Shown here one piece after another: positions 5,003 to 50,147 of a DNA stretch of 61,799 nucleotides. The notes under the pieces were generated by a model. It had not been told where the DNA came from, made no database searches, and worked only from the letters and a program-made list of their open reading frames with translations. Position numbers and translations under genes: made by a program. This DNA is from Candidatus Eremiobacteraceae bacterium (lineage in GTDB: Bacteria; Vulcanimicrobiota; Vulcanimicrobiia; Eremiobacterales; Eremiobacteraceae). Location: NCBI GenBank assembly GCA_035314825.1, contig DATFYX010000089.1:1-61799 (forward strand), in the 5' to 3' direction. Position 1 is the stretch's first letter; every line of letters starts with the position of its first letter.

Positions 5003-6139
5003 GTGCAACTCGACGGACCTGTCGCGGCTTCACAGCTTCGCGCGCACGAGCTCGATCGGCGCATCTTGCGCTTCATCGAGTGCGTTGACGCGGATGATGC
5101 GGCGTTCGAGCGCATCGCGCTCGAGGTGTTCACCTATCAGTACGAAACGAACGGACCGTACCGGCGTTTTTGCGATCGACTTGGGCGCACCCCGGACGTT
5201 GTGCGAGGTTGGATCGACGTGCCCGCCATCCCGACGTCGGTGTTCGCGCAGCTCCGGCTGGCGTGTTTCCCGCCCGAGCGCACGCGGCAGACGTTCGTGT
5301 CGAGCGGCACGACGCGCGACGCGCGCTCGCGTTTGGAACTCGAAGACACGGCGCTCTACGACGCATCGCTGCTTGCGCATTTCCGCCAGCGCGTGCTCCC
5401 CGACACGCACGCGATGCAGCTCGTCGCGCTGGCTCCGTCTTTCGACGACGCTCCCAGCTCCTCGCTGTCGTACATGCTGTCGAAGATCGCCCAGGTCTAC
5501 GGCACGCCTGACGATGGCTTCTACCTGCGCGGCGACGAGCTCGATTTCGAAGCGGTGGCCGCCGCGTTACGCGGCGCCGCGCAGCCTCTTCTCGTGGTAG
5601 GTACCGCTTTCGGCTTCGTGCACTTCTTCGACCGCTGCGCCGGCGCGGGTCTGCGCTTTGCACTGCCTCGTGGCAGCCGCGTCGTCGAAACCGGGGGCTT
5701 CAAGGGCCAGTCGCGCGAGGTCGGGCGCGACGAGTTGTACGGCTGGTTCGAACGCGTGCTGGGCGTGCCGCGCGAGCTGTGCGTCTCGGAATACGGCATG
5801 TGCGAGCTCGGCAGTCAATGGTACGACGCCAATCTCGAGGACGCCATGCAGGGCCGCACGCCGCGGTTGCATCTCAAAGTCGGCCCGCACTGGGCGCGCG
5901 CGCTCATCGTCGATCGCGTCACCGGCGCGCCGCGGTTCGACGACGAGCCCGGCTTGCTGCAGGTCCTCGATCTGAGCAATCGCGGCTCGGTGGCGTCGGT
6001 GCTGACCGGCGATCTCGCCCGCCGCATGGATGGCGGATTCGAACTCTTGGGCCGCGCACCGGGCGAACCGCCCAAGGGCTGCAGCATCGCGGTCGACGCG
6101 GCGCTCGAGCGGGCAGCGCCGGTCGAGCGCCGATCGTGA
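5003..6139 (+). CDS. LuxE-like acyl-protein synthetase
   Basis: 378 aa of the LuxE family, which activates a fatty acid with ATP and passes it as a thioester to the partner reductase LuxC. Family features visible: FVSSGTT phosphate-binding loop near residue 100, the central ETGGFKG motif, and SEYGMCELGSQWY containing the conserved Cys near the acyl-transfer site. The GTG start was chosen as the first in-frame start after the divergent gene. Its TGA overlaps the GTG of luxC, so subunits are made together. No luciferase luxAB is in the window, so bioluminescence is not implied. Confidence 0.88.
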   Translation: MQLDGPVAASQLRAHELDRRILRFIECVDADDAAFERIALEVFTYQYETNGPYRRFCDRLGRTPDVVRGWIDVPAIPTSVFAQLRLACFPPERTRQTFVSSGTTRDARSRLELEDTALYDASLLAHFRQRVLPDTHAMQLVALAPSFDDAPSSSLSYMLSKIAQVYGTPDDGFYLRGDELDFEAVAAALRGAAQPLLVVGTAFGFVHFFDRCAGAGLRFALPRGSRVVETGGFKGQSREVGRDELYGWFERVLGVPRELCVSEYGMCELGSQWYDANLEDAMQGRTPRLHLKVGPHWARALIVDRVTGAPRFDDEPGLLQVLDLSNRGSVASVLTGDLARRMDGGFELLGRAPGEPPKGCSIAVDAALERAAPVERRS

Positions 6140-7338
6140 CGACGCACATCGTCTCCGTCCGAGAACGCGCGGGCGCGATCGCGGCTGAGGCCGCGCAGTG
6201 GCGGAATCTCGATTCAGCCCCGCGGATCCAGGCGCGCGTGGCGCTCGCCGGCGGCACGTGGGCGCCGGCGGTGGTCGAGGAGGCGCTCGACAACGCGCTC
6301 TGGGACCTCGACGAACCCCGCGCGCTCGAACTCTGTAGTAGGGCGTTCTCTGAACGCGCCGGCGCGTTTGAAAAACGCGCTACTACATTAGTCATCTTGC
6401 CGGGCAACGTCATCGGACCAGTCATCCAGACGGCGTTTTGCACTGCGGTGGCAGGCGCACGCGCCATCTTGAAGGCGTCGAGCGCGGAGCGGCATCTCGC
6501 GGAGATATTGGTCCGCCAATTCGAGGCGGCTGGACCGCCGCTGTCCGGCATCCTTGAAGCGAGCCATTGGCGCGGCGGTGATATCGAGGCCGAAGCCGCA
6601 GAGCTCGCGCGTGTGGACAAGGTTATCGCGTTCGGTGAAGACGCCACGATCGCCCAGATCCGCGCGCGGGCGGGCGAGCGCGACCTCGTCGGCTACGGCG
6701 AGTCGTACAGCCTGGGCTTCGTTCATGCCGGCGCGGACATCGGAGACGCTGCGAGCGCGGCGGCATACGATGTGTGCATGTTCGATCAGCGCGGCTGCAT
6801 GTCGCCGCAGACCATCTACGTGGCCGGCGACCCAGGCAGAGCGCTGCGTTTCGCCCACGCCTTGCGGCTAGCCCTGGCCTCGCTCGGAGCCACCCTTGCG
6901 CGCGCGCCTTTCGGACCAGACGAAGCTGCTCTGGTCTCAGATTTCGTGCGGCGTCTGGCGGCTACCGCCATCGCGCCGCTCCCGCACGGGCTGGACACGC
7001 TGTTGCGCGGGCCGCTGCGCGACGGCGTGCCGGAATTCGTCGTCGCGGTCGAGCCGTTCGGCCAGCCGACGTGCGCCGGATTCGGGCGCATCGTCGTCGT
7101 CAAACACGCGCCCAGTGCGCGCGACGTCACCACGCAATTGAAGTACTATGGGCGCGCCGTCGAGACCGTCGGGATCGCGCCGCGGACGACGCAAGCCGAA
7201 TTCGATGCGCTGCGGCGCTCGGGTGCGCTGCGCATCTGCGCGCTCGGGCAGATGCAGCGTCCGCCGTTCGGCCACCGGCCGCGGCTGTCAGATTTTATGG
7301 AGCGGTCGAATTCATTCGACCGTTACGACGCGCCGTGA
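6136..7338 (+). CDS. LuxC-like acyl-CoA/acyl-protein reductase
   Basis: 400 aa of the LuxC/acyl-CoA reductase family (aldehyde dehydrogenase fold), reducing an activated acyl group to the aldehyde with NAD(P)H. Matching features: VILPGNVIGPVIQ, LKASSAERHLAE, and the catalytic Cys in MFDQRGCMSPQ. GTG start overlaps the luxE stop (GTGA). Two palindromic elements are read as coding sequence: 6334-6387 inserts about 18 residues (GAFEKRATT region), and 7303-7322 gives the C-terminal ERSNSFDRY just before the stop. The stop overlaps the aminotransferase GTG. Product aldehyde is probably the aminotransferase substrate. Confidence 0.87.
   Translation: MTTHIVSVRERAGAIAAEAAQWRNLDSAPRIQARVALAGGTWAPAVVEEALDNALWDLDEPRALELCSRAFSERAGAFEKRATTLVILPGNVIGPVIQTAFCTAVAGARAILKASSAERHLAEILVRQFEAAGPPLSGILEASHWRGGDIEAEAAELARVDKVIAFGEDATIAQIRARAGERDLVGYGESYSLGFVHAGADIGDAASAAAYDVCMFDQRGCMSPQTIYVAGDPGRALRFAHALRLALASLGATLARAPFGPDEAALVSDFVRRLAATAIAPLPHGLDTLLRGPLRDGVPEFVVAVEPFGQPTCAGFGRIVVVKHAPSARDVTTQLKYYGRAVETVGIAPRTTQAEFDALRRSGALRICALGQMQRPPFGHRPRLSDFMERSNSFDRYDAP
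6334..6387. repeat. Imperfect palindromic element inside the luxC-like gene
   Basis: 54-bp element beginning TGTAGTAG and ending CTACTACA. The outer arms pair, and each half also contains a small hairpin (GCGTT-ctctg-AACGC and GCGTTT-gaa-AAACGC). It is translated in frame, adding residues that LuxC proteins do not need. It is distinct from the CGGTCGA palindrome family. Confidence 0.65.
7303..7322. repeat. Dispersed palindrome copy 2 (end of the luxC-like gene)
   Basis: CGGTCGAATTCATTCGACCG, preceded by ATGGAG as in other copies. Arms are perfect; the loop is TTCA instead of TTTA. It is translated as part of the luxC-like C-terminus and ends 12 bp before the downstream GTG start. Confidence 0.88.
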
Positions 7339-8681
7339 ACGGCGAGGAGCTCGGCCGTATCGTCGTCGAGCCGCCAGGCCCGCGCAGCCTTGAGCTGATG
7401 GGCCGGCTGCGCGAGGTCGAAACCCCGAACATCACCTTCTCGAGCGAACGCTTTCCGGTCTTCTTCGAGCGCGGCGCGGGCGCCAATCTCATCGACGTGG
7501 ATGGCAACACGTATGTGGACCTCACCGCCGCCTTCGGCGTCGCCGCCACCGGGCATAGCAATCCGCAGGTGGTCGAGGCCGTCGCCGATCAGGCCCGGCT
7601 GCTGCTTCACGGCATCGGCGACGTGCATCCCAATGAGGTCAAAGTGGCGTTGGCCGAAAAGCTGTGCGCGCTCGCGCCGGGCGACGGTCCCAAGCGCGTG
7701 ATCCTCTCCTCGACCGGCGCCGAGGCGGTGGAGTCCGCGCTCAAGACTGCGACGCTCGCGTCGGGCAAGCCGGGCGTGCTGTGTTTCACCGGCGCCTATC
7801 ACGGGCTGACCTACGGCGCGCTCGAAGTCACGGATCGCGACTTCTTCCGCAAGCCGTTCGCGCGCCAGCTCGGCGGCTTTGCGACCCGCGTCCCCTACGC
7901 GTACTGCTATCGCTGCCCGCTCGCGCTCACCTACCCGTCGTGCGAGACCGCGTGCTTGAGCTTCGTCGAGGAAGTGATGGACAGCCAGGCCGGCGAGACG
8001 ATCGGCGCGGTCATCGTCGAGGCCATCCAAGGCCGGGGCGGCGACGTCAACGCGCCGTTCGACTGGCTGCTCGATCTGCGCGAGCTGTGCGACCGCCGCA
8101 AGCTGCTGCTGATCGTCGACGAGGTCTATACCGGGTTTGGGCGCACGGGGCGCTGGTTCGCCTGCGAGCATGCCGGCGTCGTGCCGGATCTGCTGTGCGT
8201 GGGCAAGGGCATGGCGTCGGGCTTCCCGATCTCCGCTTGCATCGGCAGCGAACGGGTGATGGACGCGTGGCCGCCCTCGCACGGAGAGGCCATCCACACC
8301 AGCACCTTCCTCGGACATCCGACGGGCTGCGCCGCGGCCTTGGCTTCGATCGCCGAGATCGAGCGGCTCGGGCTGGTGGCGCGCGCGGCGTCCAACGGAG
8401 AGTACCTCGGGGGCCTTTTGAAAGCGGCGGCGCAGAAGGTGGGTCCTGGTATCGGCGACGTGCGCGGGTGCGGTCTGATGTGGGGAATCGAGCTCGTCAA
8501 GGATCAGCGCGAGCCCGATGCATCTCGAGCGAGCAGCGCCGTCACCCAAGCCCTGCGGCGCGGCGTCGTCGTGCTGGCCGGCGGACCGGAGAACAACGTG
8601 CTTTCGCTGTCTCCGCCGCTCGTCATCACGCGCGAACAGCTCGCATTCGGAGTCGAAACGATCGGCGAAGCGCTTGCATGA
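7335..8681 (+). CDS. Class III PLP-dependent aminotransferase
   Basis: 448 aa of aminotransferase class III (ornithine/GABA/omega-amino acid group). Visible: STGAEAVESALK phosphate-binding segment, AYHGLTYGAL, LLLIVDEVYTGFGRTG with the PLP-pyridine Asp, and the PLP Lys in CVGKGMASGFP. A four-Cys stretch (CYRC, PSCETAC) is shared with many family members. GTG start overlaps the luxC stop. In this operon the likely amino acceptor is the aldehyde made by the LuxE/LuxC pair, giving a primary amine. The acceptor specificity is not deducible, and an omega-amino acid substrate is possible. Confidence 0.88.
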   Translation: MNGEELGRIVVEPPGPRSLELMGRLREVETPNITFSSERFPVFFERGAGANLIDVDGNTYVDLTAAFGVAATGHSNPQVVEAVADQARLLLHGIGDVHPNEVKVALAEKLCALAPGDGPKRVILSSTGAEAVESALKTATLASGKPGVLCFTGAYHGLTYGALEVTDRDFFRKPFARQLGGFATRVPYAYCYRCPLALTYPSCETACLSFVEEVMDSQAGETIGAVIVEAIQGRGGDVNAPFDWLLDLRELCDRRKLLLIVDEVYTGFGRTGRWFACEHAGVVPDLLCVGKGMASGFPISACIGSERVMDAWPPSHGEAIHTSTFLGHPTGCAAALASIAEIERLGLVARAASNGEYLGGLLKAAAQKVGPGIGDVRGCGLMWGIELVKDQREPDASRASSAVTQALRRGVVVLAGGPENNVLSLSPPLVITREQLAFGVETIGEALA

Positions 8682-8686
8682 ACCGC

Positions 8687-8737
8687 CTATCCACAACACG
8701 TCCACAAGAACTTCTGTCGAATCGCGGCTTATCCACA
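8687..8737. promoter_or_regulatory. DnaA-box-like cluster
   Basis: A perfect DnaA box TTATCCACA (8729-8737), an 8/9 match CTATCCACA (8687-8695) and a weaker ACGTCCACA (8698-8706), all in the same orientation within 51 bp. An AT-rich stretch follows. They sit just upstream of the promoter at 8768. They may be a DnaA-controlled promoter or titration site. No replication genes are nearby, so an origin is unlikely. Confidence 0.4.
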
Positions 8738-8767
8738 ATTTATTTGCAAAAGGAACAGTCGTTCGGC

Positions 8768-8796
8768 TTGCCTTCATTAACGATGGATTGTATACT
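8768..8796 (+). promoter_or_regulatory. Strong promoter of the structured RNA
   Basis: -35 TTGCCT (8768-8773), spacer exactly 17 nt, -10 TATACT (8791-8796), giving a predicted start near 8803. Same -10 as the suf and rpoZ promoters in this window. No ribosome site or long reading frame follows. Confidence 0.75.
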
Positions 8797-8802
8797 GCCA
8801 CT

Positions 8803-9050
8803 ACACCGACCGCGGTGCCGGGGAAGCGAAGCAACAACGGATGGTGCGAGTGCAATCGCACAGAGCTGAGCGCCTCGGGAATGGTACCCCTGCCGTTGGG
8901 GACTAGGCTCACGCCTAGTGATGGACCTGGGGATCGCGTCCCAGTAAAGCCAAAGTAAGCGGACCGGCAACGGCCGTTGACCGGACCGAAAATGAGGCTT
9001 CAGCGCCATCGACCAGACCAGTTACGACCGGGCTCACGCCCGGTCGTTAC
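8803..9050 (+). ncRNA. Putative structured RNA of unknown family, about 250 nt
   Basis: The region between the aminotransferase and the MFS gene has a strong promoter, no plausible coding frame, and several good hairpins: GTGCGA/TCGCAC near 8849-8866, ACTAGGC-TCAC-GCCTAGT at 8908-8925, a self-complementary CAACGGCCGTTG near 8970-8981, and a final 10-bp stem at 9024-9047. It lacks the hallmark motifs of RNase P RNA, tmRNA, SRP RNA and the common riboswitches I know. It may be a free small RNA (6S-like in size) or a leader controlling the MFS gene at 9143. Ends are predicted only. Confidence 0.55.
9024..9047 (+). terminator. Terminal hairpin of the structured RNA
   Basis: Stem ACGACCGGGC / GCCCGGTCGT with loop TCAC, extended by two more pairs across a mismatch, followed by the moderately T-rich TACTGTTTATG. 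It shares the core GGCTCACGCC with the hairpin at 8908-8925. The weak T tract leaves open that some transcription continues into the MFS gene. Confidence 0.5.
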
Positions 9051-9071
9051 TGTTTATGCCGCTCCGTGGAG

Positions 9072-9108
9072 CGGTCGAGTTTACTCGACCGTCGAATTTA
9101 CTCGACCG
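9072..9108. repeat. Dispersed palindrome copies 3 and 4 (overlapping tandem)
   Basis: CGGTCGAGTTTACTCGACCG (9072-9091), the G/C-arm version, overlapped by a second unit CCGTCGAATTTACTCGACCG (9089-9108) with one unpaired arm position. It is preceded by GTGGAG as in other copies. It lies between the structured RNA and the MFS gene. Confidence 0.85.
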
Positions 9109-9142
9109 GAAATGTGCCGGCCGCGCGCGAAATGCGTGAGAC

Positions 9143-10423
9143 GTGTCCTCCTCGATCCCGCACGACGCCATTTCGCCCGAACTCACCGACCACCCGAGCC
9201 AACAAGCCCTCGAGCGCTTCGGCGCCTTCGCCTATCGCGAGTTCCGGCTGCTCTGGTTCGGCCTGCTGGTCTCGAATATCGGCGGCTGGATGGCCATCCT
9301 CGCGCAGGGCTGGCTGGTCGTCGAACTCGCGCCCAATGCCGCTCTCGCGTCGCTTTACCTGGGCCTGGTGGGCTTCGTCCGGGCCATCCCTGTCTTCGCG
9401 CTCTCGGGCTTCGCCGGCGCGCTGGCTGACCGGCGCGACCGCCGCCGCATCCTCGCGGTCTGCGAGCTGGCGCTGGGCCTGCTCACGCTATCGCTTGGCG
9501 TCCTCGCGCAACTGGGGATCGTGCGCGTCTGGCATGTGCTTCTCATCGCGGCATTGACCGCGGCTGTCAGCTCGTTCGAGGCGCCCACCCGCCAGTCGCT
9601 GGTCTCGGTGCTCGTGGGCAAGCGCGAGCTGATGAACGCGATCGGCCTCAACTCCGCCGCCTTCAACGGCCCGGCGATCATCGGCCCGGCCCTGGGCGGC
9701 ATCATCGTCAGCGCGTATGGGGTCGCCGACTGCTTCTACGTCAACGCGGTGTCGTACATGGCGGTCTTCGCGGCGGTGCTGCTGATGAAGCCCAAGCCGC
9801 CTGTCGCCGACCGGCCGCAGACCGACATCTGGCACGACGTCATCGAAGGCTTCCTGTACGTCCGGGCCAACGCGCTGATCTTCGCGGTCGTCGTGCTCTC
9901 GGCTCTGCAGGCGCTGGTCGCGCGCCCCTATATCCAGTTGCTGCCGGCGTTCGCCAAGGCGCAGCTGAGCGCCAATGCGCGCCAGCTGGGCATCCTAATG
10001 GCCGTGGCCGGCGCCGGTGCGCTTGCTGGATCGATCGCAACCGCCTTCGTCGGCAGCCGGGCCCCACGCGGCAAGCTGCTGATGGCCACCGCGGCCGCCT
10101 CGGGCGCGCTGCTCGCCTTGTTGGGCGCGACCCACGCGCTGTGGGCAGCGGCGCTCGTGCTGGCGGGCTTGAGCGTCGCGGCGATGCTCTATCTGGGCAC
10201 GGCGAACACGATCTTGCAGACGCATACGCCGATGGCGATGCGCGGCCGCGTCATGTCCATCTACACGATGATCTTCTTGGGCTTCATGCCGTTGGGATCG
10301 TGGCTGCTCGGCTCGATCGCCAGCGTCACGTCGTTGCCCGTCGCGTTCGCGCTCGGCGGTGCCGTCTTGATTCTTGCGGTCGCTGTGATCGCCCGGCGTC
10401 CGGACATCCGCGAGCTGCGCTAA
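9143..10423 (+). CDS. MFS exporter (EntS-like, MFS_3 family)
   Basis: 426-aa major facilitator with about 12 membrane segments. The motif between helices 2 and 3, ALADRRDRRRIL, is the MFS motif A signature, and ALGLNSAAFNGPAIIGPALGG is typical of the EntS/MFS_3 subgroup of exporters for siderophores and drugs. The first 40 residues are cytoplasmic. The GTG start was chosen because the frame opens there; no strong ribosome site is visible. It follows the structured RNA and a tandem palindrome, either of which could influence its expression. Substrate unknown. Confidence 0.88.
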   Translation: MSSSIPHDAISPELTDHPSQQALERFGAFAYREFRLLWFGLLVSNIGGWMAILAQGWLVVELAPNAALASLYLGLVGFVRAIPVFALSGFAGALADRRDRRRILAVCELALGLLTLSLGVLAQLGIVRVWHVLLIAALTAAVSSFEAPTRQSLVSVLVGKRELMNAIGLNSAAFNGPAIIGPALGGIIVSAYGVADCFYVNAVSYMAVFAAVLLMKPKPPVADRPQTDIWHDVIEGFLYVRANALIFAVVVLSALQALVARPYIQLLPAFAKAQLSANARQLGILMAVAGAGALAGSIATAFVGSRAPRGKLLMATAAASGALLALLGATHALWAAALVLAGLSVAAMLYLGTANTILQTHTPMAMRGRVMSIYTMIFLGFMPLGSWLLGSIASVTSLPVAFALGGAVLILAVAVIARRPDIRELR

Positions 10424-13081: not shown

Positions 13082-13128
13082 CGGTCGAATAAATTCGACC
13101 GCTCCATACGGTCGAGTAAACTCGACCG
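13082..13128. repeat. Dispersed palindrome copies 5 and 6 (27-bp tandem)
   Basis: CGGTCGAATAAATTCGACCG (13082-13101) and CGGTCGAGTAAACTCGACCG (13109-13128), each followed by CTCCATA: two repeats of a 27-bp unit in reverse orientation. The two units differ only by a paired A-T to G-C exchange in the arms. They sit in the E1 beta to E2 gap of the dehydrogenase operon, directly upstream of the E2 GTG. Confidence 0.92.
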
Positions 13129-17248: not shown

Positions 17249-18778
17249 TTAGTCCAGCGCGCAGTACCTGACCTCGCCCGCGACCACCGTCATCATCACG
17301 TCGATATCCTTGATCGTCGCGGGAGCGACCGCGTCGAGGCGTTTTTCGAGCACGGCGAAGTCCGCGTCGCAGCCGGCGGCGAGCCGGCCACGCCGGTGTT
17401 CGTCGAACGAGAGCTTCGCGGCGTCTTCCGTGTATGCGCGCACGGCCTCGTCGACGCTTAGGCGCTGCGCGACGACATGGTGGTTCACGAGGCTGTGGAT
17501 GCCCAACAGCGCCGAGAAGGGCGTGACCGGCGAGTCCGAACCCCCGCATACGACGCAGCCGGCGCGTTTGGCGCTTGCGAACAGGTTCATGCCGCGTGCG
17601 ACGTCTGATCCCAGTCGCTGCTCGTACATCCGCCCGTGCCCGCCCCACAGGTGATCGAAGGCCGGCTGCATCGAGAGCAGCATGCCGAGGCGTCCGGCGC
17701 GCGCGATCTGGTCAGGCTGCGCGATCTCGAAGTGATCGATCGACGGCCGCACGCCGGGTAGCGCGCCGCGCGCGGCGATCACGGTCTCCCATGCGGCGAT
17801 CGCTTCCTCGACCGCGCGATCGCCGATCGCGTGCACGCCGAGGGACAATCCGTGCTCGGCGGCTTCGTCGAACAACTCGCGCAGCTGCGCGCCCGCGAGA
17901 TAGAGCCGCCCCGAACCCGCGCCGTCGCGATATTCACCGCTCACCGCCGCCGTGCGCGAGCCGATCGAGCCGTCGACGAAGATATCCCCGCCGAACACAC
18001 GTCTGCCGAGGCGCTTGACCTTGCGCACGTCGAGCGAGCAGACTTTGGAGATGACGCGGACCGGCAGCTCGGCGTCGTGCCGATAATGCTCGGCCAACCG
18101 CTCGAACGGCTCGTCGGCGACGATGACGTTGTGCGCCGTCGTGATGCCGGCCCGCAATGCCATCTGCGCCGCGCGCTCGTCGGCCGCACGCTTCGCGTCC
18201 GTAGAGAGCGCGGCGATGACGCCGTTCTGGGCCGCGTAGTTGGCTGCTCCGATGAGGCGCCCGGTAGATTCGCCTGCACCGTCGCGCTCGACGCCGTCGA
18301 GCGCCGCGACCTCGAAGCGCGCGAGCGCCGCGCTGTTGACGACGCATGAGTGGCCGTCCACGCGCGACAGCACGGCCGGCACCTCGCCTGTGACGGCGTC
18401 GAGCTCGGCGCGCGTCGGCGGACGGCCTTGCGCGATCGCCTGCTCCTCGTAGTTGCCGGCGTAGAGAGGGTCGGTCGAGTAAACTCGACCGCTACAGAGG
18501 TCGTGGACGCGGCGAAGCATCGAGGAGATGTCGGGGCAGTCGTGCAGGTCGTGGCCACCCGAAAGCAGACCCGTGTCGGTGAGATGGACGTGGCAATCGT
18601 GAAAACCCGGCAGCAGCGCTCCGCCGGCGCAATCGACGATGCGCACGTCGGCCGGCAGGCCCGCCGGGAGGTCGTCGAAGAGCGCTTCGATCGCGCCGTC
18701 GCGCACGAGCACGCCCCGCGCGCGCGGCGACGCGGAATGAAGACTCGCCACATCGGCGTTGACGAATGCGGCTCGCAA
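17249..18778 (-). CDS. YtcJ-like metal-dependent amidohydrolase
   Basis: 509 aa of the amidohydrolase_3/YtcJ group (zinc TIM barrel). Features: LLPGFHDCHVHLTDTG with the first metal His pair, FVDGSIGSRTAAVSGEY, GVHAIGDRAVEEA, SIDHFEIAQPDQI, and GGSDSPVTP with the catalytic Asp. Substrate is not predictable. A CGGTCGA palindrome at 18472-18491 is read in frame as SGRVYSTD near residue 96-103, in the loop after HDLHDCPDIS, where the family usually has a helix-loop. No frame disruption results. It is a monocistronic gene, convergent with the molbindin gene. Confidence 0.85.
   Translation of the reverse strand: MRAAFVNADVASLHSASPRARGVLVRDGAIEALFDDLPAGLPADVRIVDCAGGALLPGFHDCHVHLTDTGLLSGGHDLHDCPDISSMLRRVHDLCSGRVYSTDPLYAGNYEEQAIAQGRPPTRAELDAVTGEVPAVLSRVDGHSCVVNSAALARFEVAALDGVERDGAGESTGRLIGAANYAAQNGVIAALSTDAKRAADERAAQMALRAGITTAHNVIVADEPFERLAEHYRHDAELPVRVISKVCSLDVRKVKRLGRRVFGGDIFVDGSIGSRTAAVSGEYRDGAGSGRLYLAGAQLRELFDEAAEHGLSLGVHAIGDRAVEEAIAAWETVIAARGALPGVRPSIDHFEIAQPDQIARAGRLGMLLSMQPAFDHLWGGHGRMYEQRLGSDVARGMNLFASAKRAGCVVCGGSDSPVTPFSALLGIHSLVNHHVVAQRLSVDEAVRAYTEDAAKLSFDEHRRGRLAAGCDADFAVLEKRLDAVAPATIKDIDVMMTVVAGEVRYCALD
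18472..18491. repeat. Dispersed palindrome copy 7, inside the amidohydrolase gene
   Basis: CGGTCGAGTAAACTCGACCG followed by CTACAGAGG, in reverse orientation. Perfect arms with the G-C variant. It is translated without breaking the frame. Confidence 0.9.
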
Positions 18779-50060: not shown

Positions 50061-50147
50061 TGGTGCCCAGGACAGGACTCGAACCTGCACCGGTTTTACC
50101 CGACTAGCCCCTCAAACTAGCGCGTCTACCAATTCCGCCACCTGGGC
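50061..50147 (-). tRNA. tRNA-Leu (anticodon GAG)
   Basis: 87 nt including the encoded CCA (TGG at 50061-50063). Acceptor stem GCCCAGG/CCTGGGC, a D-arm GGCGGAATTGG, an anticodon stem CTAGT/GCTAG with loop TTGAGGG (anticodon GAG at 50111-50113), a long variable arm as in leucine tRNAs, and T-arm GGTTCGAGTCC. Decodes CUC and CUU. Confidence 0.95.

Follow-up and report, generated by a model that had tools for sequence, protein, structure and literature searches.

In known cases, structured RNAs of this size class (about 250 nt) whose unpaired bases are highly conserved tend to do important work, and to our knowledge few of them come from uncultivated phyla. The raiA motif RNA is also a separate gene, with a mechanism that is unclear. 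This RNA is structured and has a length of about 205 nt (PMC12286853). As for control by the replication initiator, DnaA of E. coli prefers pairs of boxes that lie 2-3 bp apart (PMC11317965). Here we report the analysis of a locus in a window of 61,799 nucleotides, the whole stretch of DNA that was analysed (contig C89 of genome G000), which belongs to Eremiobacterota, a phylum on whose RNAs our literature search found nothing. The locus carries a new RNA family, probably of a general kind that is known, namely the stand-alone structured bacterial RNA, for which the raiA motif RNA may be compared.

Promoter, boundaries and coding potential

The structured non-coding RNA is predicted as a transcript at 8803-9055 on the plus strand, based on fold stability, consensus structure and covariation. 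An earlier note on this DNA had ascribed to it a strong promoter of its own and a terminal hairpin. The promoter is found as described, being of sigma-70 type with TTGCCT-17-TATACT at 8768-8796; no other sigma-70-like site occurs in 8640-9200, where shuffled sequence has 0.2 on average, and the position of its -10 element is fixed in each of the 12 genomes whose upstream DNA can be read. Upstream of it on the same strand are an A+T-rich stretch (ATTTATTTGCAAAA, 8738-8751), which is conserved in the alignment and may function like an UP element, and a conserved imperfect palindrome, (C/G)GAAC-N4-(G/A)TTC, at 8752-8765, which adjoins the -35 element in 12 of 12 readable genomes, its right half being GTCC in one of them. 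At the other end, the hairpin ACGACCGGGC-TCAC-GCCCGGTCGT at 9024-9047 indeed has 10 pairs, eight of them G-C. Promoter and hairpin are both conserved, while the T-tract 3' of the hairpin (TACTGTTTAT) is weak and varies among the relatives. The feature also begins further 5' than had been proposed, its first parts being two DnaA boxes (8687-8695 and 8729-8737); these boxes, and the restriction of the RNA to one lineage, were overlooked in the earlier note. Its statement that the region holds no credible reading frame agrees with our alignment, where every frame has stops in most relatives and indels of 1, 2 and 4 nt disrupt all frames, and on these grounds a coding reading was dropped.

The palindrome resembles CGAAC-N4-GTTCG, and LexA/SOS control of the RNA was considered for this locus. 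It was rejected because the true SOS boxes of the lineage (TCGAACATATGTTCGA), located before imuA-imuB, are different and because the sites at the RNA score poorly, never exceeding 7 bits and in most cases staying under 3 with a LexA matrix made from sites such as that of imuA; the lineage operator TCGAAC-N4-GTTCGA does not occur at the RNA. In several genomes of the family (loci L087, L090 and L101), TCGAACATATGTTCGA or close variants precede imuA-imuB, and this box is a LexA operator of the Gram-positive/actinobacterial type. Two further observations concern the window. Palindromes between genes that resemble REP elements, with the pattern GGTCGAGTTTACTCGACC, recur at 9074-9111 (a pair just 3' of the RNA), 13111-13126 and 18474-18489, and the sole Rfam match within the window is a tRNA gene at 50064-50147 on the minus strand.

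Conserved fold and covariation

The strong stems noticed earlier are borne out by folding 8800-9056 (257 nt), which gives -115.1 kcal/mol with z = -4.1, and none of 200 shuffled sequences is equally stable. A consensus fold was then derived by RNAalifold together with explicit pair counts on an alignment of 12 sequences. It consists of a 5' hairpin P1, a helix P2 around P3, helices P4-P9 as a multi-branch core and P10 as the last hairpin, all given here on the plus strand. P1 (8804-8817, CACCG/CGGTG) is nearly invariant, so that covariation gives no test of it. P2 (8818-8823 with 8873-8878) encloses P3 (8844-8849 with 8856-8861), and compensatory changes are seen in three pairs of P2 and in five of the six pairs of P3, whose loop TGCAA is invariant. 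The core extends over 8883-9014 and comprises P4 (8883-8885/9012-9014), P5 (8887-8890/8898-8901), P6 (8902-8908/8913-8919), P7 (8920-8924/9006-9010), P8 (8927-8932/8939-8944) and P9 (8949-8969/8978-8998), with compensatory changes in all of these helices except P5. P10 is the terminator-like hairpin at 9024-9047, where three of the ten pairs have changed on both sides. In addition, AACGG (8836-8840) and the P5 loop CCGTT (8893-8897) could form a pseudoknot; since both strands are invariant in 12 of 12 sequences, the backing for this putative contact is their complementarity itself. Some of the consensus helices, P7 and P8 among them, are poorly predicted in certain single sequences.

Overall, standard pairs make up 95.6% of the cells in the 12 sequences against 87.8% after shuffling. 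The covariation among orthologous regions which the earlier note had asked about is evident from 27 pairs in which both partners have changed, against 14.0±2.1 in shuffles that ignore the relatedness of the sequences. The covariation score is 0.290, against 0.144±0.009 for the same kind of shuffles and 0.04-0.09 when the partners are slid by 1-3 columns, the latter comparison favouring the real structure from the outset because this structure came out of that very alignment; the count of double-change pairs is the more robust measure. The bulk of the signal comes from P3, P6, P9 and P10. Long unpaired stretches are also nearly invariant, namely those around AACAACGGAUG, the P3 loop (UGCAA in the RNA) and the loop of P8 (AUCGCG), a pattern that points to tertiary contacts or to the binding of a partner. 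The GGCTCACGCC core that two stems were said to share can be seen by eye at 8906-8915 and 9032-9041 of the window but lacks conservation, and because the two stems differ in sequence in the relatives, the shared core is probably a coincidence of the window's genus.

Distribution among Eremiobacterota

When 61 genomes are searched at the DNA level, every near-complete genome in the family proves to have one copy, with 73-94% identity over the aligned part. Covariance model R1, for which 12 copies were used, shows the RNA to be single-copy in 13 of the 14 family genomes at 131-275 bits, the only one without a match being 72% complete, and in the family it stands after the same aminotransferase gene. 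A model of the core (R2) gives no convincing copy elsewhere in the class or phylum (149 genomes in total) under strict filters that very diverged homologues could escape. The R2 matches above noise were inspected and rejected as the lineage's common terminator hairpin or as weak chance matches, the best of them lying inside a trypsin-like gene. Candidate diverged homologues in two other families (f2 and f3) were likewise set aside, as the BLASTN and covariance-model matches there are terminator hairpins or fall within genes or other stretches that fail to convince. One kind of terminator hairpin (ACAG..AANGACCGGGC..GCCCGGTCNTT..CTGTTT) recurs elsewhere across the phylum (L066, L065).

The sister families possess an orthologue of the aminotransferase with about 46-51% identity, and 3' of it neither the RNA, nor a DnaA box, nor the gene of the MFS exporter is seen; other genes follow instead, mostly of an oxidoreductase of Gfo/Idh type (named by eye). 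Judged from these sequence comparisons, the RNA is an innovation of one Eremiobacterota family or has been lost from the sister families. A mobile origin was considered and dropped, as nothing similar is found in plasmids or phages; viral contigs contain no exact copy of the one conserved 19-mer searched for. The covariance model may also serve as a marker for this one family.

Concerning the genes nearby, those of a LuxE-like acyl-protein synthetase, a LuxC-like acyl-CoA reductase and the class-III aminotransferase are consecutive at 5003-8681 of the window, a row that suggests a fatty-aldehyde/alkylamine pathway. On the other side, the exporter gene (PF05977) is at 9143, and the closest MFS neighbour in a named record is from a Candidatus Eremiobacterota MAG.

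DnaA boxes at a fixed position

Among the 12 genomes with readable upstream DNA, all have a DnaA box [TC]TATCCACA at a conserved position; counted from the RNA's ACACC, 11 of them have its start at -74 and one has it at -75. In the window this proximal box is TTATCCACA at 8729-8737 on the plus strand (start -74). A distal DnaA-type box, CTATCCACA, is located 42 bp further 5' at 8687-8695, plus strand (start -116), and has the same position in L003. Additional boxes start at -95 in two genomes, at -96 and -129 in one and at -116 in two, mostly 21 or 42 bp (two or four helical turns) 5' of the proximal box, and in about half of the genomes just one box is found. No box pairs 2-3 bp apart are seen upstream of the RNA in the 12 genomes. 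The boxes are rare elsewhere: the perfect TTATCCACA has 4-11 copies per genome in the four genomes tested, and a search for the looser TTATNCACA yields a single site in 397 kb of G006:C11 and two sites in 340 kb of G007:C6, every copy on these two contigs directly preceding the RNA. The same boxes occur upstream of dnaA, which was recognised from its sequence, and the box type is therefore the DnaA box of the lineage. This placement hints that the RNA may be made in step with DNA replication, and the boxes would then tie a non-coding RNA to the initiation of replication in a concrete, testable way, in a phylum for which genetics barely exists. A perfect DnaA box is also found before ftsA-like genes (or at the mechanical ORF start) in two or more genomes (L141, L153, L156), and the ftsA-like gene may be a second DnaA-linked gene, one of cell division.

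Alternative explanations

The locus had been interpreted as a new small RNA or a leader of the MFS exporter. The former part stands, as a new structured RNA is indicated by covariation, single-copy conservation and the lack of an Rfam family, and the latter is weakened. As a cis-acting leader (riboswitch or attenuator), the RNA would bind a ligand or protein at its core and so set read-through past P10 into the gene at 9143. The conserved unpaired core bases and multi-branch fold do look aptamer-like, and in most genomes the exporter starts on the same strand only 18-90 nt 3' of P10 with no space for a promoter, which makes read-through plausible, fits a leader and counts against a stand-alone RNA, as do the weak T-tract and the same neighbours in almost all genomes. 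However, the exporter is not always next in cis. A convergent gene of about 1.5 kb (DUF4139-like by eye) sits between it and the RNA in two genera, represented by G003 and G009 (L045, 918-2369, reverse complement; L050, 195 to about 1700), and in G010 the spacer reaches about 290 nt. Structural selection persists there: P9 is CGGAUC/GAUUCG in one of the separated pair and CGGACC/GGUUCG in the other, compensatory changes which keep the fold and indicate, if the insertion predates their split, that the RNA is selected without the exporter in cis. The tree places G003, G009 and G010 together, so both one insertion with a loss in G010 and two insertions are possible. Moreover, P10 does not overlap the core, and its probability is about 1 beside the core helices and regardless of the core in 11 of 12 sequences, the twelfth (L013) being out of register in the alignment; no conserved pairing that competes with P10, and no terminator/antiterminator switch, is seen across the 12. 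There is also only one genomic context. A leader is accordingly unlikely, and the separation of RNA and exporter in G003 and G009 with the fold kept, together with the independence of P10 from the core, leads us to prefer a stand-alone, DnaA-linked, single-copy structured RNA of about 250 nt, specific to the family and acting in trans, with a probability of roughly 0.6. A conserved structure with compensatory changes, expected of a stand-alone non-coding RNA, is what the alignment contains.

Two further readings are given much less weight. The locus might be primarily a DnaA-binding DNA site, for titration or similar to an origin, with the RNA secondary, as the rarity of the boxes elsewhere and their mostly 21/42-bp phasing would allow. 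This appears quite improbable, since about half of the genomes have a single box, no clear GC-skew switch occurs at the RNA, an origin-like box cluster exists elsewhere, next to dnaA, and the covarying RNA would still need an explanation of its own. A chromosomal origin at the RNA was considered and rejected in view of that cluster, the GC skew being uninformative. More improbable still is that the RNA belongs to a known class from which it has diverged strongly (e.g. 6S-like, T-box, RNase P, SRP or tmRNA), even though the size and single-copy conservation resemble those of housekeeping RNAs. The scan against Rfam 15, as had been proposed, gives no match at 8600-9300 even at E<=10, and the loci around the 12 orthologues have just sub-threshold, unrelated matches. 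In the same genome, housekeeping RNAs are matched elsewhere, on C1 (6S RNA), C31 (RNase P RNA), C34 (tmRNA) and C75 (large SRP RNA), and none of these four families (6S, RF00013) has a match at the locus. As for TGGTACC, which resembles a T-box motif, it forms one side of a helix and covaries with the other side, GGU/GGC pairing with ACC/GCC in P4, and so is not a UGGN free for tRNA NCCA; the Rfam T-box family has no match at the locus either.

Proposed mechanism

For the stand-alone RNA, a model can be built on the conserved fold, the single-copy gene, the conserved promoter and the conserved box position. Transcription would begin near 8803 from the strong sigma-70 promoter and end at or near the P10 hairpin. 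DnaA on one to three upstream boxes probably modulates this promoter, the centre of the proximal box being near -70 and the others mostly helically phased; a box near -70 on a fixed helical face would be compatible with activation through the alpha subunit of RNA polymerase. The amount of RNA would then follow DnaA and the replication state. The RNA body would be a compact multi-helix structure, probably closed by the pseudoknot, with the highly conserved unpaired segments, and it most likely acts in trans, where protein binding is more probable than simple antisense pairing. In most genomes, the exporter gene just 3' may also receive read-through. That the whole is a lineage-specific RNA/protein machine, in which direct DnaA control of the RNA couples replication initiation to a trans-acting structured RNA, is a tentative and rather doubtful extension. 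We know of no described circuit with a DnaA-controlled, trans-acting structured RNA, nor have we met a description of a promoter layout like this one, with DnaA boxes at a fixed position.

Comparison with known systems

Like 6S RNA (RF00013), the RNA is single-copy, of about 180-250 nt and probably stand-alone, but it is multi-branched whereas 6S RNA is one long hairpin with a central bubble. It shares a conserved core, a hairpin and, in most genomes, an exporter gene 3' with the riboswitch leaders of exporters (ykkC/guanidine, yybP-ykoY), and differs from them in having no family match and no visible switch, and in being kept despite a convergent gene. The raiA motif RNA is similar in size range and as a compact structured RNA (PMC12286853), whereas the Rfam match is missing here and the phylum, helices and promoter context differ. 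Finally, as in the DnaA regulon of E. coli (PMC11317965), DnaA boxes lie upstream of the promoter, while the product here is a structured RNA and the boxes are 21 or 42 bp apart rather than 2-3 bp.
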